Shown: positions 12,406 to 35,388 of the stretch, piece by piece
Layout of the letters: each line of letters opens with the position of its first letter
Numbering within the stretch: the stretch's first letter is position 1
Source of the DNA: Clostridia bacterium
Lineage (GTDB): Bacteria; Bacillota; Clostridia; Oscillospirales; CAG-272
Direction: 5' to 3'
Assembly: GCA_017456145.1 (NCBI GenBank)
Contig: JAFTJZ010000091.1
Span: 1 to 64,000 of the forward strand
Length of the DNA: 64,000 bases
Translations under genes and position numbers: made by a program
The notes under the pieces: model-generated
The model's input: only the letters and a program-made list of their open reading frames with translations
Database searches by the model: none
Told to the model about the DNA's origin: nothing

Positions 12406-12425
12406 TTTCCCACCTCTTTCCCATG

Positions 12426-12455: not shown

Positions 12456-12469
12456 CCCAGATTATCTGA

Positions 12470-12508
12470 AAAGCCCACCACCACAGTTAGTTAATCATGA
12501 TGGTGGGC
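12470..12508 (-). terminator. Terminator between capE and abiH
   Basis: GCCCACCA at 12473-12480 pairs with TGGTGGGC at 12501-12508; on the minus strand the stem is followed by TTTT. It would stop or weaken transcription of the upstream capsule operon before abiH. Confidence 0.7.
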
Positions 12509-12527
12509 ATCAGATATATTCTACTAT

Positions 12528-12561
12528 ATTATGCGGATTTCTGGATTATGCGGATTTCTGG
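12528..12561. repeat. 17-bp tandem duplication
   Basis: The unit ATTATGCGGATTTCTGG occurs twice in a row (12528-12544 and 12545-12561) between capE and its terminator. Confidence 0.9.
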
Positions 12562-12594
12562 CAAGCAAAAGTATTGTCCAGTAGATGGTAGTTA

Positions 12595-13638: not shown

Positions 13639-13681
13639 TGCTAGTTATTCTCCTTTTTTCAATATACATTTTTTACCAAAT

Positions 13682-14956: not shown

Positions 14957-14997
14957 TTTCTTATCCTCATCTCAAGCAATTCTATATACTAATTACC

Positions 14998-16101: not shown

Positions 16102-16250
16102 AGATATATCTCCATTTCTGCATCAAATTCAACATTTAAAATATTATAACCATACGGTTACATAAAATTTCCTCATTATCGGTTAACTTGATACATAAAA
16201 TACAAGTATTAACTATTACGGCAACATCTTCCTTGTAAATACTCATTTTT

Positions 16251-17408: not shown

Positions 17409-17456
17409 AAATATTCCCTTTCTCTTTCATCAAGCGGACAGACATCTTGCTCAGAG

Positions 17457-18707
17457 TTAATGATGAGTCACTAGTGAATATATCACATCAACATATTTTT
17501 GAGTCCCCTTGAGTTTATCGTAGGACGTTTCAACCAAGCTGCGACCTCTCAGTCCCTTATTTCTACATTCATTCGTGTCGCTAAATGCACACAATATAGC
17601 ATTTTTCATCGCTACTGGGTTTTCAGCTTCAGTTACGTAACCGCAATCATGGGCTTGAATCAAATTCCACAGCGCTGTATCCTTATCGAAACTGAGTAAA
17701 ATCGGAGTTGCGGTTGCCATTATGCTAAATGTTTTACTTGGCACTGCACCTCCACCAACATTTTTTTTGCACGCAACTATTGAAAGATCCCCTATGCTGT
17801 AAACCTCCGAAACACGAGATTGCGGCTGCAAAGGAAATATTGCTGTATTAGGCAAACCCTTAATCTGCTCAACAATATCTTTCTTGTTTGCGACATCACC
17901 AAATAATACAACTTGAATCGCAGCATTCTCTGTCATTAATCTAGCGGTCTCTATAATTGTATCTATACCTTGTGCAGTACCAAGATTTCCGGCATATGTC
18001 ACATAGAACTTCTCTCTATCCAGATTTAGTTCATCAAAAAGAACATTATCTTTTCTCTCAATCGGAACAACCTTTTTTGTATCAATCCAATTGGGAATGA
18101 TCTCAATTTTTTCTTCCGGAACTCCTTTATCCATGATATTCTTTTTTATATCTTCAGAGATCACAATTATCTTATCGGCACTACAATATGTAAAATCCTC
18201 TATTTTGCGACCGATCTTCCAGATCAAACTTCCCTTTTTCGTCATCTTGGCGTTGACAAGAGAATCCGGAAAAACATCCTGAAGATTATACACAAATGGT
18301 ACTTCTTTACCGTATCTCTTACTCAGTCTTTTCTTGACCAACCCGCAGAGCAGTCCTTGTGTAGGCGGCGTACTGCCTGAGAGAATCAAATCAATATCCT
18401 TTGCAGACGAGCCCTTGAAGTACTGAATGATGTTCACCAACACATATCGAATTGTTCTCTGAATAGGATTCTTACCCTCTCGGAACATGGAGAAACGATG
18501 AACAATAACCTTCCCGCCATCCAACTCCTCATATTTTTTTGTTTTATATTCCTTACGCACTTCATCGCTGATTCCCCTCGTAGGCGTCGGAACATAATTT
18601 ACAAAGGTGAATCCTGCTTTTAAATACGCTTCGTTCAAATCCTTTGTCAGATGAGAACTAGAAATCTGTTCCGGATAAAAATAGCCCGGCAACTTCAATA
18701 TACGCAT
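17457..18707 (-). CDS. Glycosyltransferase, WbuB-like (possible L-FucNAc transferase)
   Basis: A 416-residue GT-B glycosyltransferase beginning MRILKLPGYFYPEQISSSHL, with YVTYAGNLGTAQGIDTIIE and VPSKTFSIMATATPILLSFD in the donor-binding half. It resembles WbuB, which in E. coli O26-type clusters accompanies fnlABC and transfers L-fucosamine; a FucNAc donor is therefore a reasonable guess here, not a demonstrated fact. The start at 18707 is preferred because GGAGG lies six bases upstream of that ATG but touches the alternative one at 18713. Confidence 0.82.
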   Translation of the reverse strand: MRILKLPGYFYPEQISSSHLTKDLNEAYLKAGFTFVNYVPTPTRGISDEVRKEYKTKKYEELDGGKVIVHRFSMFREGKNPIQRTIRYVLVNIIQYFKGSSAKDIDLILSGSTPPTQGLLCGLVKKRLSKRYGKEVPFVYNLQDVFPDSLVNAKMTKKGSLIWKIGRKIEDFTYCSADKIIVISEDIKKNIMDKGVPEEKIEIIPNWIDTKKVVPIERKDNVLFDELNLDREKFYVTYAGNLGTAQGIDTIIETARLMTENAAIQVVLFGDVANKKDIVEQIKGLPNTAIFPLQPQSRVSEVYSIGDLSIVACKKNVGGGAVPSKTFSIMATATPILLSFDKDTALWNLIQAHDCGYVTEAENPVAMKNAILCAFSDTNECRNKGLRGRSLVETSYDKLKGTQKYVDVIYSLVTHH

Positions 18708-18863
18708 AACCATCCTCCATAATTAAGCAACCTTTTTTTGCCATGCTATTTGTAATGACATATTCTCTTCTAGAATAATTTCAATCAAAGAGACGTGGTC
18801 ACTCATTCCATCACAGTTAGCATTAACTTCGGAAAGTAAAATCCTATTTGAGCATTGCACATA

Positions 18864-19874
18864 TTAAAACTGAAATTTAGTTCCTTTCCTTTGCTCTATG
18901 CACTTATCGTAAATGTATTTTGCAAAGGAAACATCAACAAATGCTAATCCCACTGAACAGAAGTAAATGAACTCTTCATCATTTTCTCGCCCTAGTCTTC
19001 TGCCAGTCACTATCTCATCAAGATCACTATAGATCTCATCGTCTGTCAGCACTCCTTCCTTGTACATACGACTAATCGTTTGCGTTCTATGCTTGATGCA
19101 TTCCCAATCATCACAGACAATTTTTGATGCTAGTTTCGGAACAGCATACTCATCTTCCCATCCAGCAACATGGATGTAAAATGCTCCCTTCTTGATCCAT
19201 TTTGCTTTTAATATGGGTTCCTGTCCGCTTATTGCAGTTACAACGATGTCCGCATCGATTACCGCCTTCTCATAATTGTCCTGACAATCAATAAACTCCA
19301 TATCAGGATGTAGAAGTTTTTCTTCTTCAATAAAGCGTTCAGTAGATCCATCAGCCAACGAAGACACATAACACGTTTTGATCTCAGGTCTGACGATCTT
19401 CACCATATCAAGATGCCGCCTGGCCTGTTGTCCCGCACCGATAAATCCAATTGTCTTGGCATCTTCCCGTGCCAAATACTTTGCAGCAGTTGCACCGATA
19501 GAAGCAGTGCGTATTTCCGTCAGATACCCTGCATCCATCACAGAGAGTGTATGTCCGTGCGTCAGTTCTGACAAAATCATCGTTCCAGTTACATTTCTAT
19601 ATCCTTCCTTAGGGTTTTCCGGAAATACAGCAACCCACTTGACACCATAAACCTTATCTTTAAGCAAGGCACCAGGCATACAATTAATTCGATTCTGTGT
19701 TTCTTCATCAAAGATAACAGATATCTTATCTGGAAGAAGAATCTCACCGGAAATCTTCTTTTCAAATGCAGCTTCAATTATGCCAATTGCTTCAGGTAAA
19801 TTTCTGGATAAAATACTTTTTTGATCATTTGACGATATTAACAGCGTCGTGGGATTGCTTTTCATCTTTATCAT
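18864..19874 (-). CDS. Ornithine cyclodeaminase / mu-crystallin family enzyme
   Basis: A 336-residue NAD(P)-dependent enzyme of the OCD family (ELTHGHTLSVMDAGYLTEIR, then the Rossmann motif IGFIGAGQQARRHLDM). Members include ornithine cyclodeaminase, alanine and lysine-type dehydrogenases, and SbnB. It overlaps the upstream ATP-grasp gene by four bases (ATGA), implying translational coupling and a joint pathway. A plausible role is making or oxidising an amino acid that the two ATP-grasp enzymes attach to the capsule. No SbnA-like partner is present. Confidence 0.82.
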   Translation of the reverse strand: MIKMKSNPTTLLISSNDQKSILSRNLPEAIGIIEAAFEKKISGEILLPDKISVIFDEETQNRINCMPGALLKDKVYGVKWVAVFPENPKEGYRNVTGTMILSELTHGHTLSVMDAGYLTEIRTASIGATAAKYLAREDAKTIGFIGAGQQARRHLDMVKIVRPEIKTCYVSSLADGSTERFIEEEKLLHPDMEFIDCQDNYEKAVIDADIVVTAISGQEPILKAKWIKKGAFYIHVAGWEDEYAVPKLASKIVCDDWECIKHRTQTISRMYKEGVLTDDEIYSDLDEIVTGRRLGRENDEEFIYFCSVGLAFVDVSFAKYIYDKCIEQRKGTKFQF

Positions 19875-21175
19875 CTCTCTCCTAAATTGTTTTTTAGTTT
19901 TAGTTGGCTTGTTTTAAGCATTCTAAGGGTTAAATCGACTCCCGTTCCATTGAAAAATTTTAGTTTTTTATGTAATTCTTCAATGGTATCCTTGAGTTCT
20001 GCTTCTGTTTCAAAAACAAAGTGAGCAAGTGCAACGACCTGTGAAAAAGAGCCAGTATCCTTTATTTGAGACCCCTCACCGTGAATAAGCGGTAGCGTAA
20101 CTATATTTGTCATCTGCCGCGCTTCTTCAATCCCCTGCACCTTTTGAATTGTACCTGCACCACAGTAAAATGGATACACAGCATAAAATCGCTTTTTAGG
20201 AACAGTGTCAGGAATCAGCGAAGTAAAGCCATTTGTTTTACTCGTACCTGTTAGTGCGTAATATATATCTGCCGCTACTTGATTGATGCCATGTTTATAA
20301 TCTACAAAGTAGATTGATGCTGAACCTCCATATCGGAAACCGACTTCATTGAAATAGAAACTATCTCCATGGTGGAAAACTTCAATCCAGAATGAACCTT
20401 CCTTGATTCCGATCGACTGAATCATTCTTTCAATGCGTTCTTCATACTGCGCTCGGAAAGACTCCGATAGGTCGCTTTCGCAAATAAACAAACCGCCAAC
20501 GTAGCTTCCTTGTTTCTCATAACGAACAGGATACTTATCTTCTAGACCAGAGAATAAAAGCTTGCCTTCACTAACAGTATAGAAAACAACCACTCCATCA
20601 TTAGGAACAAACTTTTCAATAATAACACTACCTGTCGGTGACTCTTTAGCTGCTACGGCATAACCTTTCTTCAATTCATCAATGTTATGGCAGACAGAAA
20701 AACCGCTGCTCCCACAACCATCTGTTGGTTTGGTGATGACGGGATATTCATTTTCCGGAACAGCATTTTCGATTCCCTTATCAATCATATAACGAGGAAC
20801 AACTGGCAAATCATGTTGAATACACAACTCTTTAAAATTGCTCTTGTTCTGCAAATATTCCCACTGGTCATGTGTACAATAGCAGGGTAAGCCGAGTTCA
20901 TTAATATACTGGCAGGCTGCAGATATGACTGCCTCGCTCCCCCCCATGTACACACCATCAATTTCGGCATCTTTAATTAACTTCTTCATTGCATCTTGAT
21001 CAGTTGAGTTAACGCTATATTTTTCATCAGCGATCTCAAAAATACCAGCTGTCTGATCATTACCAGTTGCAATCAAAGTAATATCATTCTCGTCAGCAAA
21101 ATCCTTTATTGCATTTTTCCAAAGGCTACCTCCAAGAATTAACAAACGCTTCCCACTTAATTCAGGATATTTCAT
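19871..21175 (-). CDS. ATP-grasp ligase (second of two)
   Basis: A 434-residue ATP-grasp enzyme: Rossmann-like pre-domain (SGKRLLILGGSLWKNAIKDF), ATP-binding core (PVITKPTDGCGSSGFSV, SPTGSVIIEKFVPNDGVVVF) and metal-binding strand (HGDSFYFNEVGFRYGG). Such carboxylate-amine ligases form amide bonds through an acyl phosphate. A GTG at 21187 is possible, but the ATG at 21175 has GTGAGGT well placed upstream. Its stop overlaps the cyclodeaminase start. It is only distantly similar to the ATP-grasp gene upstream and more AT-rich. Confidence 0.82.
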   Translation of the reverse strand: MKYPELSGKRLLILGGSLWKNAIKDFADENDITLIATGNDQTAGIFEIADEKYSVNSTDQDAMKKLIKDAEIDGVYMGGSEAVISAACQYINELGLPCYCTHDQWEYLQNKSNFKELCIQHDLPVVPRYMIDKGIENAVPENEYPVITKPTDGCGSSGFSVCHNIDELKKGYAVAAKESPTGSVIIEKFVPNDGVVVFYTVSEGKLLFSGLEDKYPVRYEKQGSYVGGLFICESDLSESFRAQYEERIERMIQSIGIKEGSFWIEVFHHGDSFYFNEVGFRYGGSASIYFVDYKHGINQVAADIYYALTGTSKTNGFTSLIPDTVPKKRFYAVYPFYCGAGTIQKVQGIEEARQMTNIVTLPLIHGEGSQIKDTGSFSQVVALAHFVFETEAELKDTIEELHKKLKFFNGTGVDLTLRMLKTSQLKLKNNLGER

Positions 21176-21183
21176 CTTATACC

Positions 21184-22359
21184 TCACTCAACTATAATTT
21201 TCACCATCTGCAGCACTCGTTCACAAACTTTCACTGCTTCTTCAGCATTGTCCGCTTGTGCAATGACAAAACCAACTCGGTCTGTACTGCTGCCGATATC
21301 ACCAACAGTATCGCCTACTTGCTTCACAAAGGTGATCTCCTGTACACCATACAACATCTCAGCTTCTTCTACACCACTGATCTCACGGATCACACCATGC
21401 GGTGCATTAAAGTAACGAATCGCAGAACCATTCCACAATTTCTGTTCCAGATCCGGATCTTCCCCGAGTGCAATCTTGATTGTATTACCTACCATATCAA
21501 TACCGGTAGACAGAGGTACGAGATGCGTAGTGATGCAGTCGCCACCCATACGCGCCCCAAGTTCGACCATCTTCGGCCCGTTCTTTGTGAGAATGATCTC
21601 CACATGAGCCGGTCCATTCTGGATTCCCACAGACAGTGCCGCACGGCTTGCCAGATCACGGATTGCATCCTGTGCTTCTTCCGGCAGACGTGAGGGCTGA
21701 GAATGTCCCATTTCCACAAAGTGAGGCGCACCAGTCGTCAGCTTGTCTGTAATCTGAAGGACGTGAGGTGCACCGTGAGAAACCATAACTTCTACGCTGA
21801 CCTCTGGTCCCTGCATATACTCTTCCATGATGACATCACCGCGCCGACCGTTTTCAGAGGAATAGCTTAATGCTTCTGCCAGCTCATCTTCGTTATGCAC
21901 CAGCATAACTCCGCGGCTGCCGGAATTGTCTGTAGGTTTCGTAATCAGCGGAAACGTAAAAGTACCCGGCGTAGGTTTTGTACCGCCAGGGATAATCTGA
22001 TACCATGGATGTTCAACTTTCGCTGTTTCAAAAGTCTTGATCATCTCGCCCTTATCTGTCGCTTTAACAGCAGAGTCGTATGCCAAGCCTACCAGACCCA
22101 GCTTTTCACAAGCATACGCCAGTGAACGCATAGGCATATCAGTAGCAAGAGTCATAATGCCATCAGCCTTGAACTCCTTTGCTGCCCGATATACGCCTTC
22201 TTCATCGATAGTCGAGACATTGTAATACTCGTCAGCCAGTGGAATACCCACAGCATTCGGGTTGTAATCCGCTACCGCTACATACAGCCCCAGTTCCTTC
22301 GCTTTACGGATAGCAGGTACCTGCAATACCGAAGCCCCAATTATAAGTAACCGCTTCAT
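21184..22359 (-). CDS. ATP-grasp ligase (first of two)
   Basis: A 391-residue ATP-grasp protein with the expected order: KRLLIIGASVLQVPAIRKA (pre-ATP-grasp fold), PLITKPTDNSGSRGVMLVHN (ATP loop), GDVIMEEYMQGPEVSVEVM, and KMVELGARMGGDCITTHLV (metal ligands). The family joins a carboxylate to an amine or thiol. Its ATG overlaps the stop of the sugar transferase by four bases, so the two are coupled. With the next two genes it forms an amino-acid-handling module in the cluster. Confidence 0.85.
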   Translation of the reverse strand: MKRLLIIGASVLQVPAIRKAKELGLYVAVADYNPNAVGIPLADEYYNVSTIDEEGVYRAAKEFKADGIMTLATDMPMRSLAYACEKLGLVGLAYDSAVKATDKGEMIKTFETAKVEHPWYQIIPGGTKPTPGTFTFPLITKPTDNSGSRGVMLVHNEDELAEALSYSSENGRRGDVIMEEYMQGPEVSVEVMVSHGAPHVLQITDKLTTGAPHFVEMGHSQPSRLPEEAQDAIRDLASRAALSVGIQNGPAHVEIILTKNGPKMVELGARMGGDCITTHLVPLSTGIDMVGNTIKIALGEDPDLEQKLWNGSAIRYFNAPHGVIREISGVEEAEMLYGVQEITFVKQVGDTVGDIGSSTDRVGFVIAQADNAEEAVKVCERVLQMVKIIVE

Positions 22360-23015
22360 ACCTGTACCTCATCCTTCTTTTCAGCAACAGTTTCGTTTGC
22401 TGTTCCAGCACTCTTATCAATACTTTCCTGATAGTTGATGTTCTTAGAGCCAAGAACACTCAGAACTGTCTGAATCAGAATCTTCACATCGAAAATGAAA
22501 GATACATGATCCACATAGTAGCAGTCGTTTTCAAACTTCTGCTCCTGTGGGATGGAATTGCGGAAATATGCCTGCGAATATCCAGTAATACCCGGACGAA
22601 CTGTGAGACGCTTTTTGCGTTTTTCATCAAACTCTTCATAATTACCAGTCGCCAGATTCGGACGCGGTCCAACAAAACTCATGTCACCGATCAGCACATT
22701 CAGAATCTGCGGCAGCTCGTCAATGGAAAGTTTACGCATGATACGACCGATCTTTGTTACACGGGGGTCATCGTCTCCAGAATATGTAGAACCGTCTGCA
22801 TTCTTCAGCACAGGTGCATTCACCTTCATCGAACGCAGCTTAAACATTTTAAAGACCTTACCATTCATGCCCCTGCGAGTCGCATTGTAAAACACCGGAC
22901 CTCTGTCTGTCAGGTAGATAATTGGAGCGAAGATCAGAATTACAAGACCTACGAAAGGAAGTGCAATCAGGGAAATGATTATATCCAGTAATCGCTTAAC
23001 AAACTTCTTATACAT
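22356..23015 (-). CDS. Priming sugar-phosphate transferase (WcaJ/PglC-type)
   Basis: A 219-residue bacterial sugar transferase. One hydrophobic N-terminal segment (LLDIIISLIALPFVGLVILI) is followed by the catalytic block: GPVFYNATRRGMNGKVFKMF, KLRSMKVNA, RKLSIDELPQILNVLIGDMS and FVGPRP. These enzymes start each repeat unit by moving a sugar-1-phosphate to undecaprenyl phosphate. A charged tail of about 25 residues (ESIDKSAGTANETVAEKKDE) is extra. It lies 11 bases after the aminotransferase stop. Confidence 0.92.
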   Translation of the reverse strand: MYKKFVKRLLDIIISLIALPFVGLVILIFAPIIYLTDRGPVFYNATRRGMNGKVFKMFKLRSMKVNAPVLKNADGSTYSGDDDPRVTKIGRIMRKLSIDELPQILNVLIGDMSFVGPRPNLATGNYEEFDEKRKKRLTVRPGITGYSQAYFRNSIPQEQKFENDCYYVDHVSFIFDVKILIQTVLSVLGSKNINYQESIDKSAGTANETVAEKKDEVQV

Positions 23016-23026
23016 GCTTCAGTACC

Positions 23027-24352
23027 TCAATTGAATTCCTTCATAACTTCCTTCAGCATCTCGCAAACATACTCAATGTCTTCATCAGTCAATTTCGTAT
23101 GCAGCGGCAATGTGATCAGATTCTTGTAGTAATCATAGCTATTTCCATACAGCTCAATCCCACCACTGCTTTCCCTATACGCCGTCATCATCGGCAAGGG
23201 CTTGTAGTGGACGTTCGTAGCCACACCGCGCTCAGCCATCTTCTCGATGATCACGTTACGCTGTTCCTCGTCTATTCCAAGAACACGGATCAGGTAGAGA
23301 TGATTAGAACTATCCATGAAATCAGTGTGGTGAACGAGGTGCTTGATACCCAGCCCATCACAGGTCTCATCATAACGTTTCATCATCTCTACACGGCGAT
23401 CCAGCATCCCCTCATAACGGTCAAGCTGTCTGAGACCAATTGCAGCCATAATATCCGTCATGTTGCACTTATACCAGGGGCCGATGATGTCATACTCCCA
23501 AGCACCGATCTTGGTCTTCGCCAAAGCGTCCTTGTTCTGACCATGCAGAGACAACAGCTGGAAGAACTTATAGATTTCCTTATCTTCCACTCCAGAGATT
23601 TCCAGCCAAGCACTTGCACCGCCTTCGGCGGTTGTAAAGTTCTTCACAGCGTGGAAAGAGAAAGAGGTGAAGTCAGCAATAGCACCGCAATACTTCTTCT
23701 CGCCCTTAAACATACGACTTGCACCAAGACTGTGGGCATCATCAGCAACGACTGCTACACGACCAATAGCCTTCTGGATACGTGCGGACAGATCATTCAG
23801 CGGATTGCCATCAGAGACCATGGGAGTGAAGAGCGCCTTCTTCTTCTCCACGATCTCAAAGATCCTCTCATAATCAGCCACGATACCGCCGAGATCAACG
23901 ACAATAATCGCCTTGGTTTTCTCGGTGATTGTTTTTTCCAGCTTCGCATAGTCCATCTCAGGCATGTGCGTTACTGGATCGCCATCCTTCTGGATATCCA
24001 CGAACTTGACAGTAGCACCACAGTGGATAGCAGCAGAAGCGGAAGCGGTATATGTATAAGCCGGAACGATAACTTCGTCACCGGGGCCAACGCCAAGAAT
24101 GCGAAGGTTCAGCTCCTCAGCTGCTGTTGCGGAGTTGAGGCACACAACCTTCTGGCTGTACTTAGCGATTGCTTCCTTCGTGGTGCAATCCACATCAGTT
24201 CTGCCAGTTTCAATATAAGCCGCCAGACGGCACTCCAGCATTTTCGTTCTCGGACCAGTAGTGATCCAACCAGAACGCAGAGCCTCGTTTACTTCAGCGA
24301 TTTCAAGTTCTGAAATATCCGGCGGGCTAAAACTGATAACTCTCTTCTCCAT
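23027..24352 (-). CDS. DegT/DnrJ/EryC1-family PLP aminotransferase
   Basis: A 441-residue PLP-dependent sugar aminotransferase, somewhat longer than the usual 370-390 because of an insert near residues 150-185. Family motifs are GWITTGPRTKMLE, VCLNSATAAEELNLRILGVG and VIVPAYTYTASASAA; the PLP lysine is in SFSFHAVKNFTTAEGG. It would aminate a keto-sugar nucleotide. No matching 4,6-dehydratase besides CapE is in the window, so the substrate source is unclear. It is the first gene of the capsule operon. Confidence 0.9.
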   Translation of the reverse strand: MEKRVISFSPPDISELEIAEVNEALRSGWITTGPRTKMLECRLAAYIETGRTDVDCTTKEAIAKYSQKVVCLNSATAAEELNLRILGVGPGDEVIVPAYTYTASASAAIHCGATVKFVDIQKDGDPVTHMPEMDYAKLEKTITEKTKAIIVVDLGGIVADYERIFEIVEKKKALFTPMVSDGNPLNDLSARIQKAIGRVAVVADDAHSLGASRMFKGEKKYCGAIADFTSFSFHAVKNFTTAEGGASAWLEISGVEDKEIYKFFQLLSLHGQNKDALAKTKIGAWEYDIIGPWYKCNMTDIMAAIGLRQLDRYEGMLDRRVEMMKRYDETCDGLGIKHLVHHTDFMDSSNHLYLIRVLGIDEEQRNVIIEKMAERGVATNVHYKPLPMMTAYRESSGGIELYGNSYDYYKNLITLPLHTKLTDEDIEYVCEMLKEVMKEFN

Positions 24353-24874: not shown

Positions 24875-26983
24875 TTACACTCGCGCTGCGGGATTCCGCC
24901 CCTCCCCCACCCCGATCAGTGAGAGCTTTTCTCGTCGAGCCTCGGACATGGTTGGCAGGGCGTCGCGTTGGCGGCGGATCCAGCGGCCGAGGCGGCAGCC
25001 GTCCTCGGTGATATAAGCGACGGGAATATTGAGGTCACCGTGCTTACGCTTATAGGCGCAGGCAGCGGCGTAGGAGCGCTCCCATGTGGTATCGTGCTTG
25101 TTTTTCCACGAAAACCCGAGCTCGGCGAGCAGTGTAAGCTGCACCTCGCTCAAGGGGGCGCGCTTGGAGTTGGCGTTGTTCTTTGCTGTCCGCAGGCTGG
25201 CGAGCCATGCGCCAAGACGGATGCCGTCCTCTGTGACATAGTACAAAGGCACATCCAGATTTCCGTAGGTGCGATGATAGTCGACAGCAGCGTGGTAATT
25301 CTTCTCCCAAAGGTAGTCAGGAACGTCCCACACCATGCCGATTTCGTCCAATTTTCGGATACGCGCCTCGGTCAGATAGGCACTTTGAATTTTATTTTTA
25401 CGGTAAGAGCGCAGCTGCGCGATCCAGCGACCGAGCGCCACGCCGCGGTAATTGTTATGATTGATATTGACCAGCAGGTCGCCGTGCTCGGCGCGATACG
25501 CCACAGCGGCTGCGTAGTTCTTCTCCCAAGCGAGGTCACGAACGCTCTCCCAGCGCATCCCAATGGCGTTCAGCTTTTCAATCTGCGCGTCGGTCAGAAT
25601 GCCGTTGACCTTGCCCTCGTGCACCAACCGCTGTGTATTCAACCACACACCAAGGGTCAACCCATCGGCGGTGACATAACGCTTTGGCACGTCGAGATTG
25701 CCGTTTTCCTCATAAAAATATTTGGCAGCATCATACATCAGCTCCCAGGATGCGGTGAGCGTATCATTGAGCCGATCAAACAGTGCGATACAATCCCGCA
25801 CCTCGTCGATGACCTGAAAATGCTCGGTGACGATCTCGCCCTCCAGCCCCAGCGAACGATAATAAGCCGTCGCGATCTCCATCTCCTCCTCAACCGCACC
25901 AATGCTGTAAAGGTTTTCGATGTTGAGCACAATGTCGAAGATAACGGCGTTGTTCTTTTTGCTCGCGGACAACGCGCGCCCGACCTGCTGCTTATATATA
26001 ATGGGAGAAATGGTCGGACGCAGCAGAATGACGCCGCTGACGTCGTCGACATGGATGCCCTCGTTGAGCATATCGATGCAGAAGAGCAGCTTGAGATGAT
26101 CGCTGTCGTCCTGCTTGAAGGAGACAAAAGCATGGCTGGTCAGCGGGTCGTCGGAGTATGCCATATAGATATGCGGCGCGGGGTCAACCTTGGTAAACCA
26201 CTCTCTCGACTTCTCGACCATCTCGCACAGATGCTCGTAGTTGGCACAGAAAACGATATACTTCCCTGCGCGCTCACTCATGTGCTTGTCGAAAATGACG
26301 TCCAGCCCGTCCGCCTTATCCAGCGCACGGCGCAGCGCCTCAAGAATTTTCTCACCCCCGTCGCGTACAGCTTTACTCTTTGCCGAGCGTACACGGGCTT
26401 GGTATTTTTCCAGATCCTTTTGGTAGGAAAAGACCGAAAGCACGTACTTCGGTGCGGTCAGAATACCGCGGACGATAGCCTCACCCAGTGTCATTTCGGA
26501 GGCGACGTTGCCACAGAACAGCTCGTCGGACATATCCCGTCGGTTGTCCAGATAACGCACCGCCGTCGCGGAAAGCCCCAGCACGGGCGCGTCGGGATAA
26601 GCGGTAAGCAGGGTACTCACACCCTTCCCCCACATCTGCGCACCACAGCGATGGAACTCGTCAAGCACGATGTAATCGGGCTTGATCAGCGCGATCTCGT
26701 CCTCATTCATGTTCATCAGCTTGGCGTAGGTAAAGAATTTTATATTTTCGGGCACGAATCCATCCGACACGGCAGCCAAGTTTTCGAGCTGGGTCTTGAA
26801 AATGTACTCGGACGGCGAGAGCCAGCAGACCGATGCCTCGGGAAAATCCTCGCACAGCTTGAATGCGATGAACGATTTTCCCGTTCCCGTCGGATGCACC
26901 ACCGCCGCGCGCCCCACCTCATGCAGCATCGAAAGAGCCGACGCATACGCGTCTGCATTGTGTTTGTACAACATAATGCCCAT
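24875..26983 (-). CDS. DEAD/DEAH helicase with helicase-associated (HA) repeats
   Basis: A 702-residue superfamily 2 helicase. Walker A is HPTGTGKSFIAF (about 29-40), motif II is LDEFHRCG, motif III GLSATAVRYLD, and the second RecA domain carries GIHVDDVSGVILLRPT and QQVGRALSAS. From about residue 425 come four HA-type repeats of about 70 residues, each with a W-x3-Y-x-A-A-x-Y pattern (LAWEKNYAAAVAY, LWEKNYHAAVDY, TWERSYAAACAY). Such proteins occur on mobile elements and plasmids; the cellular role is unclear. AAGGAG precedes the ATG. It is monocistronic. Confidence 0.88.
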   Translation of the reverse strand: MGIMLYKHNADAYASALSMLHEVGRAAVVHPTGTGKSFIAFKLCEDFPEASVCWLSPSEYIFKTQLENLAAVSDGFVPENIKFFTYAKLMNMNEDEIALIKPDYIVLDEFHRCGAQMWGKGVSTLLTAYPDAPVLGLSATAVRYLDNRRDMSDELFCGNVASEMTLGEAIVRGILTAPKYVLSVFSYQKDLEKYQARVRSAKSKAVRDGGEKILEALRRALDKADGLDVIFDKHMSERAGKYIVFCANYEHLCEMVEKSREWFTKVDPAPHIYMAYSDDPLTSHAFVSFKQDDSDHLKLLFCIDMLNEGIHVDDVSGVILLRPTISPIIYKQQVGRALSASKKNNAVIFDIVLNIENLYSIGAVEEEMEIATAYYRSLGLEGEIVTEHFQVIDEVRDCIALFDRLNDTLTASWELMYDAAKYFYEENGNLDVPKRYVTADGLTLGVWLNTQRLVHEGKVNGILTDAQIEKLNAIGMRWESVRDLAWEKNYAAAVAYRAEHGDLLVNINHNNYRGVALGRWIAQLRSYRKNKIQSAYLTEARIRKLDEIGMVWDVPDYLWEKNYHAAVDYHRTYGNLDVPLYYVTEDGIRLGAWLASLRTAKNNANSKRAPLSEVQLTLLAELGFSWKNKHDTTWERSYAAACAYKRKHGDLNIPVAYITEDGCRLGRWIRRQRDALPTMSEARREKLSLIGVGEGRNPAARV

Positions 26984-27012: not shown

Positions 27013-27037
27013 TGTAATGAAGTATAACACTTCAAGA
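27013..27037 (-). repeat. 25-bp motif with inner palindrome, copy 1
   Basis: Contains TGAAGTATAACACTTCA (arms TGAAGT/ACTTCA, 5-bp spacer). The whole 25 bp is repeated exactly in inverse orientation at 27402-27426. Read on the minus strand it contains TGTTATACT, an extended -10 box, 30-odd bases from the helicase start. Confidence 0.9.
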
Positions 27038-27401: not shown

Positions 27402-27426
27402 TCTTGAAGTGTTATACTTCATTACA
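27402..27426 (+). repeat. 25-bp motif with inner palindrome, copy 2
   Basis: Exact inverse copy of 27013-27037. It points toward the sugar-kinase operon just as copy 1 points toward the helicase, so it is either a shared operator/promoter element or the terminal inverted repeats of a 414-bp miniature mobile element. Confidence 0.9.
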
Positions 27427-27493
27427 TTTCCCGATGGTTTTGTCGGGAATTTTTTATTTTGCACGAAAAGTACGATAAATATCAAATTGTATC

Positions 27494-27522
27494 TTGACAT
27501 TTGCGTTGATTTATGTTATAAT
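27494..27522 (+). promoter_or_regulatory. SigA-type promoter of the UDP-uronate operon
   Basis: TTGACA at 27494-27499 and TATAAT at 27517-27522 with a 17-bp spacer, a perfect consensus, 35 bases ahead of the start at 27557. Confidence 0.9.
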
Positions 27523-27556: not shown

Positions 27557-28969
27557 ATGGAATACATGGACGTCAAACGTGCGGCAGAGGTCTGGTTGTT
27601 ATCCGAACGCAGGATCACTGCCTTATGTCGCAACGGTCGGATCGTGGGTGCCAAGAAAAGCGGAAAAACATGGATGATCCCCGATGACACCAAAAAGCCC
27701 TTAGATGGACGGACACGCGAATATGCAAGCGCGAACGAGCAGGACGCATCCGTTGCGCATACAACAACGCGATACACCACCGAGGGCGCGACGGGCAAGG
27801 TAGTCGATGCTTTTGAAAATACATATTTACGCGCCCCCGAGCACGTTGCCTTCACGCCCTACCGCATCTGCCCGATCGGTGCGCATTCCGATCACAACTT
27901 GGGCAAGATCACAGGCTTTGCCATCAATAAGGGCATCCATATCGCCTACGGTCCCAAGCAAAACGGCGTGATTGAGATCGCCTCGTTGCAGTTCCCCAAG
28001 CGGGCACAGTGGCACGTTGCCTCCACGCCCTCGGTCAAGCAGGACGACTGGGCAGACCATCTGCGCGGCGCAACCATCGCGCTCAACAAGCGTTATCCGC
28101 TGCGCACGGGGCTTTGCGCCATCGTGGACGGCGAGCTGCCCATCGGTGGCCTTTCCTCCTCGGCGGCGGTCATCATCACCTTCCTCTCCGCCCTCTCCCA
28201 CATGAACGGCATCAAGTTGACCGAGCGAGAGCTGATCGACATTTCGATGGAGGCAGAAAACCAATACGTCGGCGTTTCCTGCGGCAAGCTGGATCAATCC
28301 TGCGAGGTTTACTGCCGCAAAGGACATCTGCTTTATCTTGACACCAAAGACGACACTTATGAGCTGATCCCCCAGCATCCGAGCATGAAACCCTACAAAA
28401 TTGCCATTTTCTTCTCGGGTATCGAGCGCACGCTGGCGGGTTCCGCCTTCAATATGCGTGTAGATGAGGCGCGCAGCGCGGCCTACGCACTCAAGGCGTT
28501 GGCCGGCCTTCCTTACGGCAAGTTCAATGAGACCAATCTGCGCGACGTTCCCCGTGAGATCTTTGAGCAGTATAAGGACAAGTTGCCAAAAAGTTGGGCA
28601 AAGCGCGCCGAGCACTGGTACACCGAATTTGACCGCGTGCAAAAGGGGGCTGAGGCGTGGCGCAGAGGCGACATTGAGGCCTATGGTAAGCTGTCCTTTG
28701 AAAGCGGCCGTTCCTCGATCTACAACTGGGAGACCGGCTCGCCCGAGCTCAAAAAGCTGTATGATATCATGACCGAGACCGACGGCATCTACGGCGGCCG
28801 TTTCTCTGGCGCGGGCTTTAAGGGCTGCTGCATGGCGTTGATCGATCCCGCCTATGAAGATGCGATCAAGGAGAAGGTCACCCGCGAATACCTCGCCGCC
28901 TTCCCGCATCTTGAGGGCAAATACTCCGTTCACATCTGCGAGAGCGCGGACGGCGTGAAATTGATTTGA
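27557..28969 (+). CDS. HTH-domain/GHMP sugar kinase fusion (galactokinase or galacturonokinase-like)
   Basis: A 470-residue protein. Residues 1-50 are a MerR/excisionase-like DNA-binding domain (YMDVKRAAEVWLLSERRITA, GAKKSGKTWMIPDD). After a linker, residues 95-470 are a GHMP kinase: PYRICPIGAHSDHNLG in place of the galactokinase GEHTDY signature, GGLSSSAAV (phosphate loop) and FSGAGFKGCCMALID. The PYRICPIGAHSDH block is what I remember from plant galacturonokinase, and the following genes handle UDP-uronates, so galacturonate 1-phosphorylation is a good guess; galactose remains possible. The ATG at 27557 has AAAGGAG upstream. A regulator fused to the kinase suggests substrate-responsive self-control. 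Confidence 0.82.
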   Translation: MEYMDVKRAAEVWLLSERRITALCRNGRIVGAKKSGKTWMIPDDTKKPLDGRTREYASANEQDASVAHTTTRYTTEGATGKVVDAFENTYLRAPEHVAFTPYRICPIGAHSDHNLGKITGFAINKGIHIAYGPKQNGVIEIASLQFPKRAQWHVASTPSVKQDDWADHLRGATIALNKRYPLRTGLCAIVDGELPIGGLSSSAAVIITFLSALSHMNGIKLTERELIDISMEAENQYVGVSCGKLDQSCEVYCRKGHLLYLDTKDDTYELIPQHPSMKPYKIAIFFSGIERTLAGSAFNMRVDEARSAAYALKALAGLPYGKFNETNLRDVPREIFEQYKDKLPKSWAKRAEHWYTEFDRVQKGAEAWRRGDIEAYGKLSFESGRSSIYNWETGSPELKKLYDIMTETDGIYGGRFSGAGFKGCCMALIDPAYEDAIKEKVTREYLAAFPHLEGKYSVHICESADGVKLI

Positions 28970-28992
28970 CGCAGGGCTCTGCCCTGCACCCG

Positions 28993-29022
28993 CCAAAGAA
29001 CCTTTTGAAAAAGGTTCTTTGG
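28993..29022. repeat. Dispersed hairpin repeat
   Basis: A 14-bp stem with a two-base loop, CCAAAGAACCTTTT and its complement, just after the kinase gene; member of the window-wide hairpin family. It may act as a terminator or an RNA-stability element within the operon. Confidence 0.8.
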
Positions 29023-29100
29023 AATCTCCAAAACCTTTCAAAAAGGGGTTTTGCGTTCTATGGTTTATTTGATAAAAATTTATAAAAGTTCTTGAAGGGT

Positions 29101-29132
29101 CAAGGGAAACTTCTTTCAAGAAGTTTCCCTTG
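29101..29132. repeat. Dispersed hairpin repeat next to a start codon
   Basis: CAAGGGAAACTTCTT pairs perfectly with 29118-29132 across a TC loop. It ends only 11 bases before the next ATG. Confidence 0.85.
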
Positions 29133-29143
29133 AAAAAATAACT

Positions 29144-29881
29144 ATGAAATGTTTAATTTTAGCAGCGGGATACGCGACGCGTCTTTACCCGCTGACCGAA
29201 AATTTTCCTAAGCCCTTGCTTGAGGTTGGGGGAAAGACCATTCTGGATTGGTTGATCGACGACATTGACACGCTGGGTGCGGTCGACGAGTACGTTGTCA
29301 TTTCCAATCACAAGTTCGCACATCATTTCGACGCGTGGGCTGCTAAAAAGCCCCAGAAGGTCACCGTCGTGGACGACGGCACAAGCAGCAATGAGACTCG
29401 CCTTGGCGCGGTACGCGACATTCAGTTTGCCATCGACCGTCTGGGCTTGGATGAGGAGGTTCTGGTCATTGCGGGGGATAATCTGTTGGATTTCTCCCTG
29501 ACCGAATTTATCCAATATGCCAAGCGAAAGCAGGCATCTGCCATTATGCGATATTATGAGCCGCGCCTGCAAAAGCTGGTCAAGTGCGGTGTGGTCACAG
29601 TAGACCAAGACGATAAGATTCTCGAAATGACCGAAAAATCTCCCACACCTGCGACCAACTGGTGCTGCACGCCCTTTTATTATTTTACCAAGGAGGATGC
29701 GCGTCTGATCAGTAAGGGGATCGAGGCAGGCTGCGGTGTGGACGCCCCCGGCAACTACATTGTCTGGCTCTGTCAGCAGACACCTGTCTACGCCATGCAG
29801 ATCCCCGGGAAGAGATACGATATCGGAGATCTCGAAAGCTATGAAAAGGTACAAAAGGAGTATAGAGGAATCATATGTTGA
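29144..29881 (+). CDS. Sugar-1-phosphate nucleotidyltransferase
   Basis: A 245-residue protein with the nucleotidyltransferase signature MKCLILAAGYATRLYPLTE, the acidic metal site VIAGDNLLDFS and PGKRYDIGDLESYEKV at the C-terminus, as in RmlA/GalU-like enzymes. It would join a sugar-1-phosphate to a nucleotide, probably the product of the kinase upstream with UTP. No Shine-Dalgarno is visible before the ATG; a long hairpin ends 11 bases upstream. It overlaps the next gene by 7 bp, so both should be co-translated. Confidence 0.85.
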   Translation: MKCLILAAGYATRLYPLTENFPKPLLEVGGKTILDWLIDDIDTLGAVDEYVVISNHKFAHHFDAWAAKKPQKVTVVDDGTSSNETRLGAVRDIQFAIDRLGLDEEVLVIAGDNLLDFSLTEFIQYAKRKQASAIMRYYEPRLQKLVKCGVVTVDQDDKILEMTEKSPTPATNWCCTPFYYFTKEDARLISKGIEAGCGVDAPGNYIVWLCQQTPVYAMQIPGKRYDIGDLESYEKVQKEYRGIIC

Positions 29882-30948
29882 CACCCAATATTGATTTGAA
29901 AAACAAAACCGTTCTGGTCACCGGCGCGGCCGGCTTTATCGGCTCAAACTTGGTCATGGAGCTGCTGCGCACCGTGCAGAGTATCAAGATCGTCGGACTT
30001 GACAATATGAACGATTATTACGACGTTTCGATCAAGGACTATCGCCTTGGCGAGATTGATAAGCTGGCTGCCGAGCACCCCGATTGTTCTTGGACGTTCG
30101 TCAAGGGGAACCTTGCCGATCGCGCGCTGATCGACCGTCTGTTTGAGGAATACAGCTTTGCTGTCGTCGTCAATTTAGCAGCACAGGCGGGCGTGCGCTA
30201 TTCCATTACCAATCCCGACGTCTATATTGAGAGTAACATCATCGGCTTTTACAATATCCTTGAGGCTTGCCGTAACCACCCGGTCGAGCATCTGGTTTAC
30301 GCCTCCTCCTCATCGGTTTACGGCACCAACAAGAAGATTCCCTACTCTACCGACGATAAAGTCGACAATCCTGTCAGCCTTTACGCCGCAACCAAAAAGT
30401 CCAATGAGCTGATGGCGCACTCCTACTCCAAGCTCTATAACATTCCCTCCACGGGCTTGCGTTTCTTCACGGTCTACGGTCCCGCAGGCCGCCCCGACAT
30501 GGCCTACTTCGGCTTTACCAACAAGCTGCGCAAGGGTCAGACCATCGAGATCTTCAACTTCGGCAATTGCAAGCGCGATTTCACCTATGTGGATGATATC
30601 GTCACAGGAGTCAAGCACGTCATGCAGAACGCCCCCGAAAAGCAGAACGGCGAGGACGGTCTGCCACTGCCTCCTTATCGCGTCTACAACATCGGCAACA
30701 ACAATCCCGAAAACCTTTTGGATTTCGTAACCATTCTGCAAGAGGAGCTGATCCGCGCCGAGGTGTTGCCTGCCGACTACGACTTTGAGGCGCATAAAAA
30801 GCTGGTTCCCATGCAGCCCGGCGACGTGCCGATCACCTACGCCGACACCTCGGCGCTGGAGCGCGATTTCGGTTTTAAGCCCTCCACCTCGCTGCGCGAC
30901 GGACTTCGCCGCTTTGCCGAGTGGTATAAACAATTTTATCGGGTATAA
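29875..30948 (+). CDS. NAD-dependent UDP-uronate 4-epimerase-like enzyme
   Basis: A 357-residue extended short-chain dehydrogenase: VLVTGAAGFIGSNLVMELL binds NAD, NLAAQAGVRYSITNPDVYI is the block typical of UDP-glucuronate 4-epimerases, SSSSVYGTN gives the catalytic Ser, and LYAATKKSNELMAHSYS the Tyr-x3-Lys pair. It should interconvert UDP-glucuronate and UDP-galacturonate, supplied by the UDP-glucose dehydrogenase downstream. GAGGA precedes its ATG, which lies inside the end of the nucleotidyltransferase gene. Confidence 0.88.
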   Translation: MLTPNIDLKNKTVLVTGAAGFIGSNLVMELLRTVQSIKIVGLDNMNDYYDVSIKDYRLGEIDKLAAEHPDCSWTFVKGNLADRALIDRLFEEYSFAVVVNLAAQAGVRYSITNPDVYIESNIIGFYNILEACRNHPVEHLVYASSSSVYGTNKKIPYSTDDKVDNPVSLYAATKKSNELMAHSYSKLYNIPSTGLRFFTVYGPAGRPDMAYFGFTNKLRKGQTIEIFNFGNCKRDFTYVDDIVTGVKHVMQNAPEKQNGEDGLPLPPYRVYNIGNNNPENLLDFVTILQEELIRAEVLPADYDFEAHKKLVPMQPGDVPITYADTSALERDFGFKPSTSLRDGLRRFAEWYKQFYRV

Positions 30949-31152
30949 CTTACCACCCCTTACACAAAACTAAATATATTGCATTACGCAGTTGCCATAG
31001 GAGACACCATAGGGACTGTCGCTTGCAACCTCATAACGCCGTGCGCGGCATCAAAGACAGATGCCGTCGCTCCGCAAACATATCAAATCATGAAAGGCAC
31101 GGAGAGACGTGTTCCGACGATGCGTCCCACGTCTCCCCATCAGGTATTATGT

Positions 31153-32337
31153 ATGAAGATTGCAGTCGCAGGAACCGGCTATGTCGGTCTTTCTATGGCA
31201 ATTTTGTTATCGCAACACCATAACGTCACCACCGTTGACATCGTCGAAGAAAAGGTAAAGATGATCAACGCAAGAAAATCCCCGATCGCAGACCGCGAAA
31301 TCGAGGAATATCTTTCCACCAAGGAATTGGATCTGAGCGCCACCACCGACGGCACTGCCGCATATCGGGATGCCGAGATGGTCATCATTTCCACCCCGAC
31401 CAACTACGATCCCTCCAAGAATTATTTTGACACCTCCAGTGTAGAGAGCGTCATCGCGCAGGTCATCGAGGTCAATCCCGACGCCGTCATGATCATCAAA
31501 TCCACCGTCCCCGTCGGCTTTACCGAAAAGGCACGGGCTGATTTTTGCTGCGATAACATTCTCTTCAGCCCCGAATTTCTACGCGAGGGACGAGCGCTTT
31601 ATGACAATCTCTACCCCAGCCGTATCATTGTCGGCGTTCCCGTTGGCAACAAACGGCTGGAAAAGGCTGCACAGACCTTTGCCGCACTGCTCAGGGAGGG
31701 AGCCGTCAAGGAGGACATCGAGGTCCGATATATGAACCCGACCGAGGCAGAGGCAGTCAAGCTGTTCGCCAACACCTATTTGGCACTGCGCGTTTCCTTT
31801 TTCAATGAGCTGGACACTTACGCTGCCGTGCGCGGGCTTGACACCAAGTCCATCATAGAGGGCGTCGGGCTGGATCCCCGCATCGGTACGCATTACAACA
31901 ATCCCTCCTTCGGCTACGGCGGTTATTGTCTCCCCAAGGACACCAAGCAGCTGCTCGCCAATTACAACGACGTGCCGCAGAATATCATCTCCGCCATCGT
32001 AGCCGCCAACGGTACTCGCAAGGATTTTATCGCAGATCAGATCATCGCCAAGCACCCTAAAACGGTCGGCATTTATCGTCTGACCATGAAGGCGGGCAGC
32101 GATAACTTCCGCCAGTCCTCTATCCAAGGCGTTATGAAACGCATCAAAGCCAAGGGCATCGAGGTCATCATCTACGAGCCTACCATGCGTGACTCCGCCT
32201 TTTTCAACAGCCGCGTCGTCCGCGATCTTGCCGTCTTCAAGCAGAGCGCCGATGTCATCCTTGCCAACCGTTATCACGACGACCTTGCCGATGTGTTGGA
32301 TAAGGTATATACCAGAGATCTGTATTTCAGAGATTGA
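31153..32337 (+). CDS. ugd: UDP-glucose 6-dehydrogenase
   Basis: A 394-residue enzyme: [20 protein letters not shown] (NAD fold), [32 protein letters not shown], and the catalytic cysteine in [15 protein letters not shown]. It oxidises UDP-glucose twice to UDP-glucuronate. The short form of about 390 residues with these blocks is typical for bacteria. The ATG at 31153 begins exactly at the conserved N-terminus; an upstream frame is open but lacks homology. The 204-base gap to the epimerase holds an 8-bp inverted repeat (GAGACGTG / CACGTCTC) but no clear promoter. Confidence 0.93.
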
Positions 32338-33633: not shown

Positions 33634-33662
33634 TTGCAATATCGTTTCGTTTGTGATATAAT
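33634..33662 (+). promoter_or_regulatory. Recombinase promoter spanned by an inverted repeat
   Basis: TTGCAA at 33634-33639, TATAAT at 33657-33662 with extended TG, spacer 17 bp. GCAATATC at 33636-33643 has its complement GATATTGC at 33679-33686, so a repressor bridging both could close the promoter. Confidence 0.7.
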
Positions 33663-33714
33663 AGAGGATATTGATCATGATATTGCGAACTTATTGATGA
33701 TCGGAGGTATTCAG

Positions 33715-35388
33715 ATGGATCTTTTAAGCATTCGCGCGCTGCTGCGCACCAAGTCGATCTACGAGACACCGTTGCGGGTGACCTATTACGCGCGGGTATC
33801 GTCCGAGAGCGACGAGCAGCTCAATTCACTGAGCAATCAGGTGGCATACTACAGCAATTTCATCAAGGAAAAGAAGGCATGGGAATACGTGGAGGGCTAC
33901 ATCGACGAGGGCATTTCGGGCATCTCGACCAAAAAGCGCGATGCCTTCAACCGCATGATCGCCGACGCGCAGGAGGACAAATTCGACCTGATCATCACCA
34001 AGGAGATCTCACGCTTTGCCCGCAACACACTGGATTCCATCAAATTCACCCGCGACCTGCTCGCCTGCGACGTCGGGGTGCTGTTTCAGAACGACGGGCT
34101 TTGCACCTTTGACGAGGACAGTGAGCTGCGGTTATCCATCATGTCCTCCATCGCGCAGGACGAGCTGCGCAAGCTCTCCTCGCGCGTCAAATTCGGGCAT
34201 CAGCAGGCGATCAGATCCCACGTGGTGCTGGGCAACAGCCGCATCTTCGGCTATCGCAAGGACAACAAGCATTTGGTGATCGATTCGGAGGAGGCGGTCA
34301 TGGTGCGCGAGCTGTACGAGCTATATGCCACCGATCAGTACAGCATGAAACAGATCGAGACCATCTTCTGGGAGCGCGGCTACCGCAATCACAACGGAAA
34401 AAGGATCGCCCACACAACCATGTCAGGTATGATCTCCAACCCGAAATACAAGGGCTACTATGTCGGTAACAAGGTCAAGGTGGTGGATATGTTCACCAAA
34501 AAGCAAAAGTTTCTGCCACCCGAGGAGTGGGTCATGTTCAAGGATGAGACGGGCGAGCTCGTTCCCGCCATCGTCACAGAGGAGCTGTGGGATGCGGCGA
34601 ACGCCATTTTGCGCCGCAGGAGCGAGGATGTCAAGAACCGACAGGGTGTGTGCAATCACGCCAATCTTTTGACGGGTAAGATGTACTGCGCGGCGTGTGG
34701 TGCGGCCTATTATCGGCGCGAGTCCAGGAGCCGCGTGACAGGCGCGGTCAACTCCAAATGGGTCTGCTCGGGCAAGATCAAGGGCGGCGCCGATTCCTGC
34801 CCCTCCTTTCCCATCTACGAGGACGAGATCAAGCCGATTCTTTATGAGGCATTTCGGGAAACCGAGGCAGACGTTGAGGCGATCATCCGTCAATATACTG
34901 AGATGTTCCGTGAGATCGCAAGCGCGGACGACATCGGAGAACAGATCGCGAGTGCCAAAGCACGATTGGAGATCATTCAGAAAAAGAAGAACAAGCTGCT
35001 GGAGTACAATGTGACAGGGCAGATATCCGACCGCGAATACATGGAGATGAGCCGCGCCTGTGAGCGGGAGAGAGCCGAGCAGGAGGAGACGCTGCATGAG
35101 CTTGAGGAGCAGCTGCTCTCGCAGGACGAGTTCCGCAAACGCATGAACGACATTGAAAATGCCCTCCGCACAGCGCAAGCCGAGGCGACGACGGGATTGA
35201 TCACTCCCGAATTTGTCAACAAGTATATCGACAAGATCGTTGTCACGCCCGTGGACGAGGCTACGGCACAGCTGACCATCCGCATCTTTACGGGAGAGAC
35301 CACCGAAAAGTATCTGCAAAAGCTTGAAAGTCGTGCGGGACACACGTTCAAGAAGATGGTTGAGTCCTACGAGAACTCCATCAAATAA
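33715..35388 (+). CDS. Large serine recombinase (site-specific integrase)
   Basis: A 557-residue recombinase. The resolvase domain spans about 15-165, with the catalytic serine in YYARVSSESDEQLNSLSNQ and later FDLIITKEISRFARNT. The Recombinase domain follows (HKYKGYY-like region at about 240), then a zinc ribbon (MYCAACGAAYYRRES, WVCSGKIKGGADSCPSFP) and a long coiled coil (about 400-490). Such enzymes integrate and excise phages or integrative elements. CGGAGGT supports the start at 33715. No element ends, cargo or att core could be identified nearby, so it may be a solitary remnant. Confidence 0.9.
   Translation: MDLLSIRALLRTKSIYETPLRVTYYARVSSESDEQLNSLSNQVAYYSNFIKEKKAWEYVEGYIDEGISGISTKKRDAFNRMIADAQEDKFDLIITKEISRFARNTLDSIKFTRDLLACDVGVLFQNDGLCTFDEDSELRLSIMSSIAQDELRKLSSRVKFGHQQAIRSHVVLGNSRIFGYRKDNKHLVIDSEEAVMVRELYELYATDQYSMKQIETIFWERGYRNHNGKRIAHTTMSGMISNPKYKGYYVGNKVKVVDMFTKKQKFLPPEEWVMFKDETGELVPAIVTEELWDAANAILRRRSEDVKNRQGVCNHANLLTGKMYCAACGAAYYRRESRSRVTGAVNSKWVCSGKIKGGADSCPSFPIYEDEIKPILYEAFRETEADVEAIIRQYTEMFREIASADDIGEQIASAKARLEIIQKKKNKLLEYNVTGQISDREYMEMSRACERERAEQEETLHELEEQLLSQDEFRKRMNDIENALRTAQAEATTGLITPEFVNKYIDKIVVTPVDEATAQLTIRIFTGETTEKYLQKLESRAGHTFKKMVESYENSIK

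Follow-up and report, generated by a model that had tools for sequence, protein, structure and literature searches.

The locus described here raises the question of which sugar is activated by a kinase that carries a DNA-binding domain of its own, and of what that domain would do. It occupies positions 27557–32337 of a 64,000-nt stretch of DNA (the window, by which we mean the whole stretch analyzed) from the 2.92-Mb genome of a Clostridia bacterium, and it opens with a GHMP sugar kinase joined at its N-terminus to a helix-turn-helix (HTH) domain. We are fairly confident that this protein is a bifunctional enzyme-regulator: a putative galacturonate (perhaps glucuronate) 1-kinase for UDP-galacturonate salvage, which would repress its own operon. 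Galacturonic acid is a building block of plant pectin, and a single protein seems to activate it and to sit on the switch of its own gene. The features of the locus are:

27478–27501, strand not assigned: proposed operator AATATCAAATTGTATCTTGACATT, an inverted repeat with 15/16 consensus arm positions
27494–27522, plus strand: sigma-70 promoter TTGACA-17-TATAAT (12/12 consensus), its -35 box within the right operator arm
27557–28969, plus strand: HTH-galacturonokinase fusion of 470 amino acids (aa), opening the unit; ATG at 27557, stop codon at 28967–28969
27557–27715, plus strand: excisionase/MerR-like winged-helix domain, residues 1–53 (profile match and structure model)
27797–28966, plus strand: GHMP sugar-1-kinase domain of the galacturonokinase type (GAHSDH, GLSSSAA, CGKLDQS, FSGAGFKGCC)
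29144–29881, plus strand: short nucleotidyltransferase, proposed uronate-1-phosphate uridylyltransferase (family computed, substrate proposed)
29875–30948, plus strand: SDR-family UDP-sugar epimerase, proposed UDP-glucuronate 4-epimerase (family computed, substrate proposed from structural matches and neighbors)
31153–32337, plus strand: UDP-glucose 6-dehydrogenase, with its real ATG at 31153 and its stop codon ending at 32337

Coordinates and profile searches confirm the layout given by an earlier, sequence-only reading of this DNA (a MerR/excisionase-like domain joined to a GHMP kinase, then a nucleotidyltransferase, an epimerase-like enzyme and a UDP-glucose dehydrogenase), and the kinase signature that it had noted as other than GEHTDY is present as read: the motif PYRICPIGAHSDH spans residues 101–113. 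In the same protein Pfam places GalKase_gal_bdg at residues 85–133, GHMP_N at 171–252 and GHMP_C at 367–445, with PF10509, PF00288 and PF08544 all exceeding their gathering scores. Ala109 replaces the Glu of GEHTDY, which we take to contact O6 of the sugar: this position is Ala in 85 of the 85 relatives with a residue there and Asn or Glu in galactokinases (residue counts refer to 86 relatives, L004–L083 plus six more, the window being excluded). The residue after GAGF is Lys in 85 of the 86 relatives, Arg in the plant row, and Ala or Gly in 23 of 24 galactokinase-like rows (L091 is counted among these despite belonging to the family of the window kinase); this Lys is a candidate for holding the carboxylate. 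By blastp, the kinase matches the Arabidopsis galacturonokinase (GalAK) with 226 bits and 38% over 399 aa, the plant sequence being in all comparisons an unverified copy, which forms a single long-branched row in the tree below, and galactokinase-like proteins of related genomes with 62–147 bits; in the latter list L091 (237 bits) is a fragment of the same kinase family and L002 matches via the HTH. A tree of 98 kinase domains, built by a quick method and leaving out two fragments (L088, L091) as well as, for size, 12 galactokinases, sets GalAK and 86 bacterial rows including the window apart from 11 galactokinases with an SH-aLRT of 99. At the level of sequence there is good support for a sugar kinase of galacturonate type to which a regulator is fused.

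The kinase neighborhood fits salvage, for which plants use a kinase and a pyrophosphorylase according to passages of PMC8636097. We propose that the C-terminal domain would phosphorylate free D-galacturonate, and probably D-glucuronate too, at C1; the neighboring nucleotidyltransferase would convert the sugar-1-phosphate to UDP-galacturonate, and the epimerase would link the latter with UDP-glucuronate, the dehydrogenase product from UDP-glucose. Among the 80 relative loci examined (of 298 relatives counted), many of which lie on short contigs, the nucleotidyltransferase starts within 150 bp after the kinase end in 64 (24/34 fused, 40/46 unfused) and lies within 5 kb in 71, while the available DNA holds the epimerase in 48 and the dehydrogenase in 26. 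Phylogeny and this likely salvage partner next door both support the earlier proposal of a galacturonokinase. Kinase and nucleotidyltransferase are adjacent in most relatives, unlike in the window, where the gap at 28970–29143 contains two hairpin-like inverted repeats by eye and may be an inserted repeat element. For the epimerase, the best PDB match is 5u4q (374 bits, titled dTDP-glucose 4,6-dehydratase), followed by WbgU (139 bits) and 6zl6 (138.5 bits), and none of 25 NCBIfam models reached its cut-off among the matches listed; its label derives from the neighboring genes and from the identity of 5u4q and 6zl6, which we presume to be UDP-glucuronate 4-epimerases. The dehydrogenase scores 338 bits with TIGR03026 (cut-off 190) and 618 bits with PRK15057 (cut-off 757). 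The genome also carries two uronate isomerase genes. The kinase itself is patchy: a clear member (E < 1e-70) was found in 7 of 58 other genomes searched as relatives and in none of the five congeners searched.

The kinase could instead prefer glucuronate or take both uronates, with the epimerase yielding UDP-galacturonate and the regulation being as we propose. Of the 86 relatives, 79 have Phe at the position of the plant Tyr250, six have Tyr and one has Leu; the window kinase also has Phe there (Phe298), for which reason we speak of a galacturonokinase type and not of GalAK. Yang and co-workers reportedly found in 2009 that the plant A41E variant loses activity and that the Y250F variant also phosphorylates glucuronate, so that glucuronate acceptance is possible and both uronates may be substrates in the bacterial clade. 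According to passages of PMC3938481, Ruminococcus and other Firmicutes have nucleotidyltransferases related to the domain that is joined to glucuronokinase in zebrafish; these may be the family seen here, which would also favor glucuronate. The same passages, however, describe galacturonokinase as very diverse in sequence from glucuronokinase; the window kinase is kin to the former, and in one relative the repeat described below has a copy at an alpha-galacturonidase gene. A preference for glucuronate, or for both, is unlikely, though with an appreciable chance of being right.

Under our preferred reading of a galacturonate-type kinase that represses its own operon, the N-terminal domain would bind DNA. 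HTH_17 (Pfam) matches residues 3–42 with 17.7 bits against a gathering score of 27. Modelled alone, the HTH reaches a pLDDT of 86, and the predicted fold of the N-terminus resembles the DNA-binding domains of lambda Xis, BldC and MerR, in keeping with the earlier expectation of an N-terminus able to bind DNA; residues 61–75 form a low-confidence linker in the model. At the sequence level the fusion is a real, heritable architecture: it is present in 34 of 80 relatives, a share that is biased upwards because one of the six search peptides was taken from the HTH, and together with the window this gives 35 fused kinases. As noted in the sequence-only reading the fusion is there, with the change that it is common to many relatives, which are mostly Clostridia metagenome-assembled genomes by record title, many of them from animal guts. 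In the tree all fused rows fall within one well-supported set of 69 rows, 34 of which are unfused, and the best tree requires 8–11 changes between the two states. A stand-alone or decayed HTH upstream of the unfused kinases was considered and rejected: tblastn with 35 HTH queries on 51 regions upstream of unfused kinases revealed neither a remnant nor a separate HTH gene in 50 of them, the sole hit (L073) lying on the other strand and being chance-like, while L064, with almost no upstream DNA, tests nothing in this search.

New in this analysis is a 24-bp inverted repeat before the fused genes, AATRTCA(A)-N8-TTGACATT, whose right arm holds the -35 hexamer and which was found by eye in the 160 bp upstream of these genes. 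In the window it lies at 27478–27501 with TATAAT 17 bp on, in the best promoter of the region scanned (12/12), and the exact pattern AATRTCA-N9-TTGAYATT occurs once in the 2.92-Mb genome, at this very place. A repeat score of at least 12/16 within 250 bp is reached by 28 of 35 fused and by 0 of 45 unfused genes (46 less L064), compared with 3.6% and 2.1% of dinucleotide shuffles. As the motif was derived from the sequences on which it was scored, much depends on three controls: genes without the fusion, a scan of spacings and the other TTGACA promoters. The spacing scan (29 promoters, leaving out L024 and five promoters under the score limit) gives a mean left-arm match of 5.76/8 at spacing 8 and of 1.97–4.00 at the other 30 spacings; in L006, L016, L028 and L040 the promoter chosen was not the one with the repeat's TTGACA, which lowers the count at spacing 8. 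A left arm of at least 6/8 accompanies 19 of 25 kinase promoters and 8 of 68 other TTGACA promoters of the same loci (without L024 and L032, near-duplicates by judgement), and six of these eight are the repeat itself: five times the kinase's own site again, once the lplD site described below. In the fused kinases of L013 and L040, Ala stands for Cys24 beside the recognition helix and the right arm reads TTGACTTT, not TTGACATT; since the two are close in the tree, the change may be one event. A same-strand gene lies within 70 bp upstream of 0 of 29 fused and of 22 of 43 unfused genes (Fisher 7e-7, kinship ignored; rough gene caller, six fused and three unfused loci with less than 900 bp upstream left out), and the fused genes look like unit heads.

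Mechanistically, two winged helices would together occupy the inverted repeat that covers the -35 box of their own gene and block transcription, and occupation of the kinase site by a uronate (or by uronate phosphate) would loosen the grip on DNA. Binding of the repeat by the head is likely, and we hold this with confidence; that it represses, rather than activates, and that the uronate or its phosphate brings relief is what we infer with moderate confidence. The predicted fold and a repeat that overlaps the -35 box before most fused and none of the 45 unfused genes support the self-repression suggested earlier. The arrangement is not that of MerR, whose operators sit in an overlong 19-bp promoter spacer, as here the spacer measures 17 bp and the repeat lies over the -35 box; nor is it that of the ROK regulators, which have an actin-like sugar-kinase fold where the present protein has a GHMP fold. 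What is found is an HTH joined to an enzyme with intact active-site motifs (by Pfam, alignment and model), together with an operator-like sequence at its own promoter, and the proposed operator is precise enough for direct testing.

Would the repeat act beyond the kinase? The half-site AATGTCAAGATAYA, a pattern adjusted to the copy in the window, has exact matches at two sites in the 2.92 Mb (about 0.04 matches expected by arithmetic at even base composition): in the window operator and upstream of one uxaC (uronate isomerase) gene. There, two half-sites stand in tandem, and the nearer one forms, by eye, the same repeat with a -35-like box (AATGTCAAGATAGGGCTTGCAATT) and TACAAT 17 bp on. With up to two mismatches the genome yields 57 rows, whereas the reversed pattern yields 17, and weaker half-sites are accordingly in part background. 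Among fused genomes, the one that carries L023 shows a uxaC half-site of 12/14 (locus L201). Conserved uxaC regulation was nevertheless rejected, as the best upstream repeat score is 11/16 alike in 28 rows from fused genomes (about 24 genes, as fragments of one gene were counted twice; another row could not be used) and in the 30 rows of unfused genomes. In the relative L011, the gene immediately before the kinase gene has a copy of the repeat in front of it; the product of this gene has the LplD alpha-galacturonidase 3fef as best PDB match (468 bits) and an alpha-galactosidase subfamily model, under its cut-off (230 of 486), as best NCBIfam match. uxaC in the window's own genome and the alpha-galacturonidase gene in one relative are possible further targets. 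Both uxaC and lplD are galacturonate genes.

The HTH is not confined to kinases: the window's genome has it on a LuxR-type protein (L130, 1492–2730), and relatives have it on proteins with Fic, AAA/PD-(D/E)XK or DNA-methylase domains. In 7 of 12 such HTH-fused genes the 200 bp before the start are richer in repeats than almost every shuffled version (no more than 7 of 300 have as many), these counts possibly including terminator hairpins; the other five are unclear, three of them without any repeat. Two Fic genes (L139, L140) have TTGCCGATA repeats, plain by eye, both within their likely promoters and ahead of them. Upstream regions of module-bearing loci were noted for L139, L140, L142, L145, L146, L133 and L135, several with distinct repeats of their own. 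An HTH on unrelated proteins, several with upstream repeats of their own, looks like a portable self-operator module, and HTH_17 may be a general self-regulating module of Clostridia. Tentatively, and with less than even confidence, we extend our reading to a one-chain galacturonate sensor, kinase and repressor in which the substrate or product would open the UDP-galacturonate operon and, in some genomes, lplD or uxaC, which serve to release and to burn galacturonate respectively, the head being such a portable module shared by many unrelated clostridial proteins. If this were true, one chain would choose between building with and burning the pectin sugar.

Several observations weigh against the reading as a whole. 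Phe298 departs from the Tyr of GalAK, and the plant sequence compared is an unverified copy. In the window 174 bp separate the kinase from the nucleotidyltransferase, and eight loci with room for the latter do not have it, seven of them fused. The HTH_17 match stays under its gathering score. The motif was found by eye in the same fused sequences on which it was scored, and one of the 28 scoring genes, L023, has the repeat off-position. Seven of the 35 fused genes score below 12 within 250 bp: L004, with a perfect 24-bp copy starting 357 bp upstream; L012 and L030, with a score of 11; L019 and L026, where the repeat is by eye one base wider; L049, where it is by eye two bases wider (TTTGTCAA-N10-TTGACAAA); and L038, whose HTH is degenerate by eye and which shows no repeat. 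The 70-bp limit was chosen post hoc, and at 150 bp the counts become 10/29 and 27/43 (p 0.03, kinship ignored); once kinship is considered, three contrasts between a fused and an unfused kinase are both independent and well supported, a number that does not suffice for a test. When one mismatch is allowed, fused (23/32) and unfused (22/32) genomes contain the pattern about equally often, on which account a regulon by whole-genome counts was rejected; the exact pattern is listed in 6/32 fused genomes (five kinase-promoter sequences and one site inside a reading frame, G059) and in 0/32 unfused ones. Finally, the gap that holds the uxaC site also serves a divergent gene, and no such site precedes the uxaC genes identified in other fused genomes.

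Some of these points would also suit a DNA-binding domain that is a mere passenger, with the repeat serving another regulator: DNA binding is predicted from sequence, 46 of 80 relatives do without the domain, and L023 retains it without a well-placed repeat. Yet the repeat tracks the fused and not the unfused kinases examined, it is missing from L038 along with an intact-looking HTH, and the same domain on other proteins often comes with repeats before the starts of the genes concerned (7/12 clearly), which makes a passenger distinctly improbable.

Still less probable is an ordinary galactokinase with an unusual motif. The nearest solved structures are indeed galactokinases (Foldseek TM about 0.73 by query length), but no chain named galacturonokinase is among the PDB matches listed, so that structure cannot decide the kinase type. 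While TIGR00131 is missed by only 36 bits, the other four NCBIfam galactokinase models are missed by far, and none of the five cut-offs is reached (203/443, 201/385, 191/227, 185/499 and 113/509 bits, score/cut-off). The same genome has a separate galactokinase-like gene (L003) with a GNHTDH motif, and the window kinase groups with GalAK in the tree. A firm place within the galactokinases, named beforehand as the result that would overturn the sequence-only reading, did not emerge from cut-offs, blastp or tree. That the kinase domain is no longer catalytic and serves as a sugar sensor only, as in many ROK repressors and yeast Gal3 and as fused regulators often end, has the slightest chance of all, since Arg103, Gly198–Ala203, Asp246 and Gln247, presumably active-site positions, are invariant in the 35 fused proteins, and the nucleotidyltransferase, which would need the product, is retained in most.

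The surroundings of the putative enzyme-repressor unit contain further elements. An exact 24-bp inverted repeat, GTAATGAAGTATAACACTTCAAGA, with each arm nearly palindromic, occurs at 27014–27037 and 27402–27425 and brackets most of the gap between the kinase promoter and a divergent gene (24875–26983, minus strand) for a ResIII-type helicase with four helicase-associated (HA) repeats. A terminator-like hairpin with a T run lies on the plus strand at 27428–27449, 28 bp before the proposed operator, even though the neighboring gene on the left (24875–26983) runs on the minus strand. The minus strand at 7956–24352 is mostly a surface polysaccharide cluster with Polysacc_synt_2, Epimerase plus Polysacc_synt_C and Epimerase_2 genes that resemble the synthesis of what we take to be UDP-FucNAc, and with flippase-like and glycosyltransferase-like genes, a sugar transferase and a DegT aminotransferase; this cluster, at 8–24 kb of the window, is a plausible consumer of the salvage product. 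Within it (18864–22359, minus strand), an ornithine-cyclodeaminase-like gene and two ATP-grasp ligases suggest amino-acid decoration. Shortly downstream of the operon, a large serine recombinase (33634–35388) possibly marks a mobile-element end.

How does this protein compare with known systems? We know of no GHMP sugar kinase with its own DNA-binding repressor domain. In the open-access literature, subscription papers being outside the scope, no paper on a bacterial galacturonokinase was found among the matches listed, and none that combines "GHMP kinase", "helix-turn-helix" and "DNA-binding domain". The zebrafish bifunctional glucuronokinase/putative pyrophosphorylase likewise pairs a uronate 1-kinase with a short nucleotidyltransferase that has bacterial kin, but it fuses two enzymes, is glucuronate specific and, in passages of PMC3938481, has no regulator reported. 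Plant GalAK (Arabidopsis At3g10700) shares the pairing with a UDP-sugar pyrophosphorylase, as stated in parts of PMC8636097. Plants use the broad "SLOPPY" pyrophosphorylase, whereas the window has a short bacterial nucleotidyltransferase. The plant enzyme, in the unverified copy compared, has the same GHMP fold and the same PYRICPxGAHxDH and FSGAGF[KR]GCC motifs, and it differs in being without a DNA-binding domain and in having Tyr at a position that is mostly Phe in the bacterial clade. Yeast Gal1/Gal3 also employ a GHMP galactokinase fold in gene regulation, but through protein contact with Gal80 and without a DNA-binding domain of their own. As a kind, the enzyme-repressor is already known, and within the open-access scope none with a GHMP fold as its enzyme was found described: NadR, BirA and the archaeal RbkR each combine an HTH and a metabolic enzyme in one chain and have their operator at the promoter of their own pathway. 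The window protein would share this design, and it differs from all three in its GHMP sugar kinase fold, its uronate pathway and its excisionase/MerR-like HTH_17 head.

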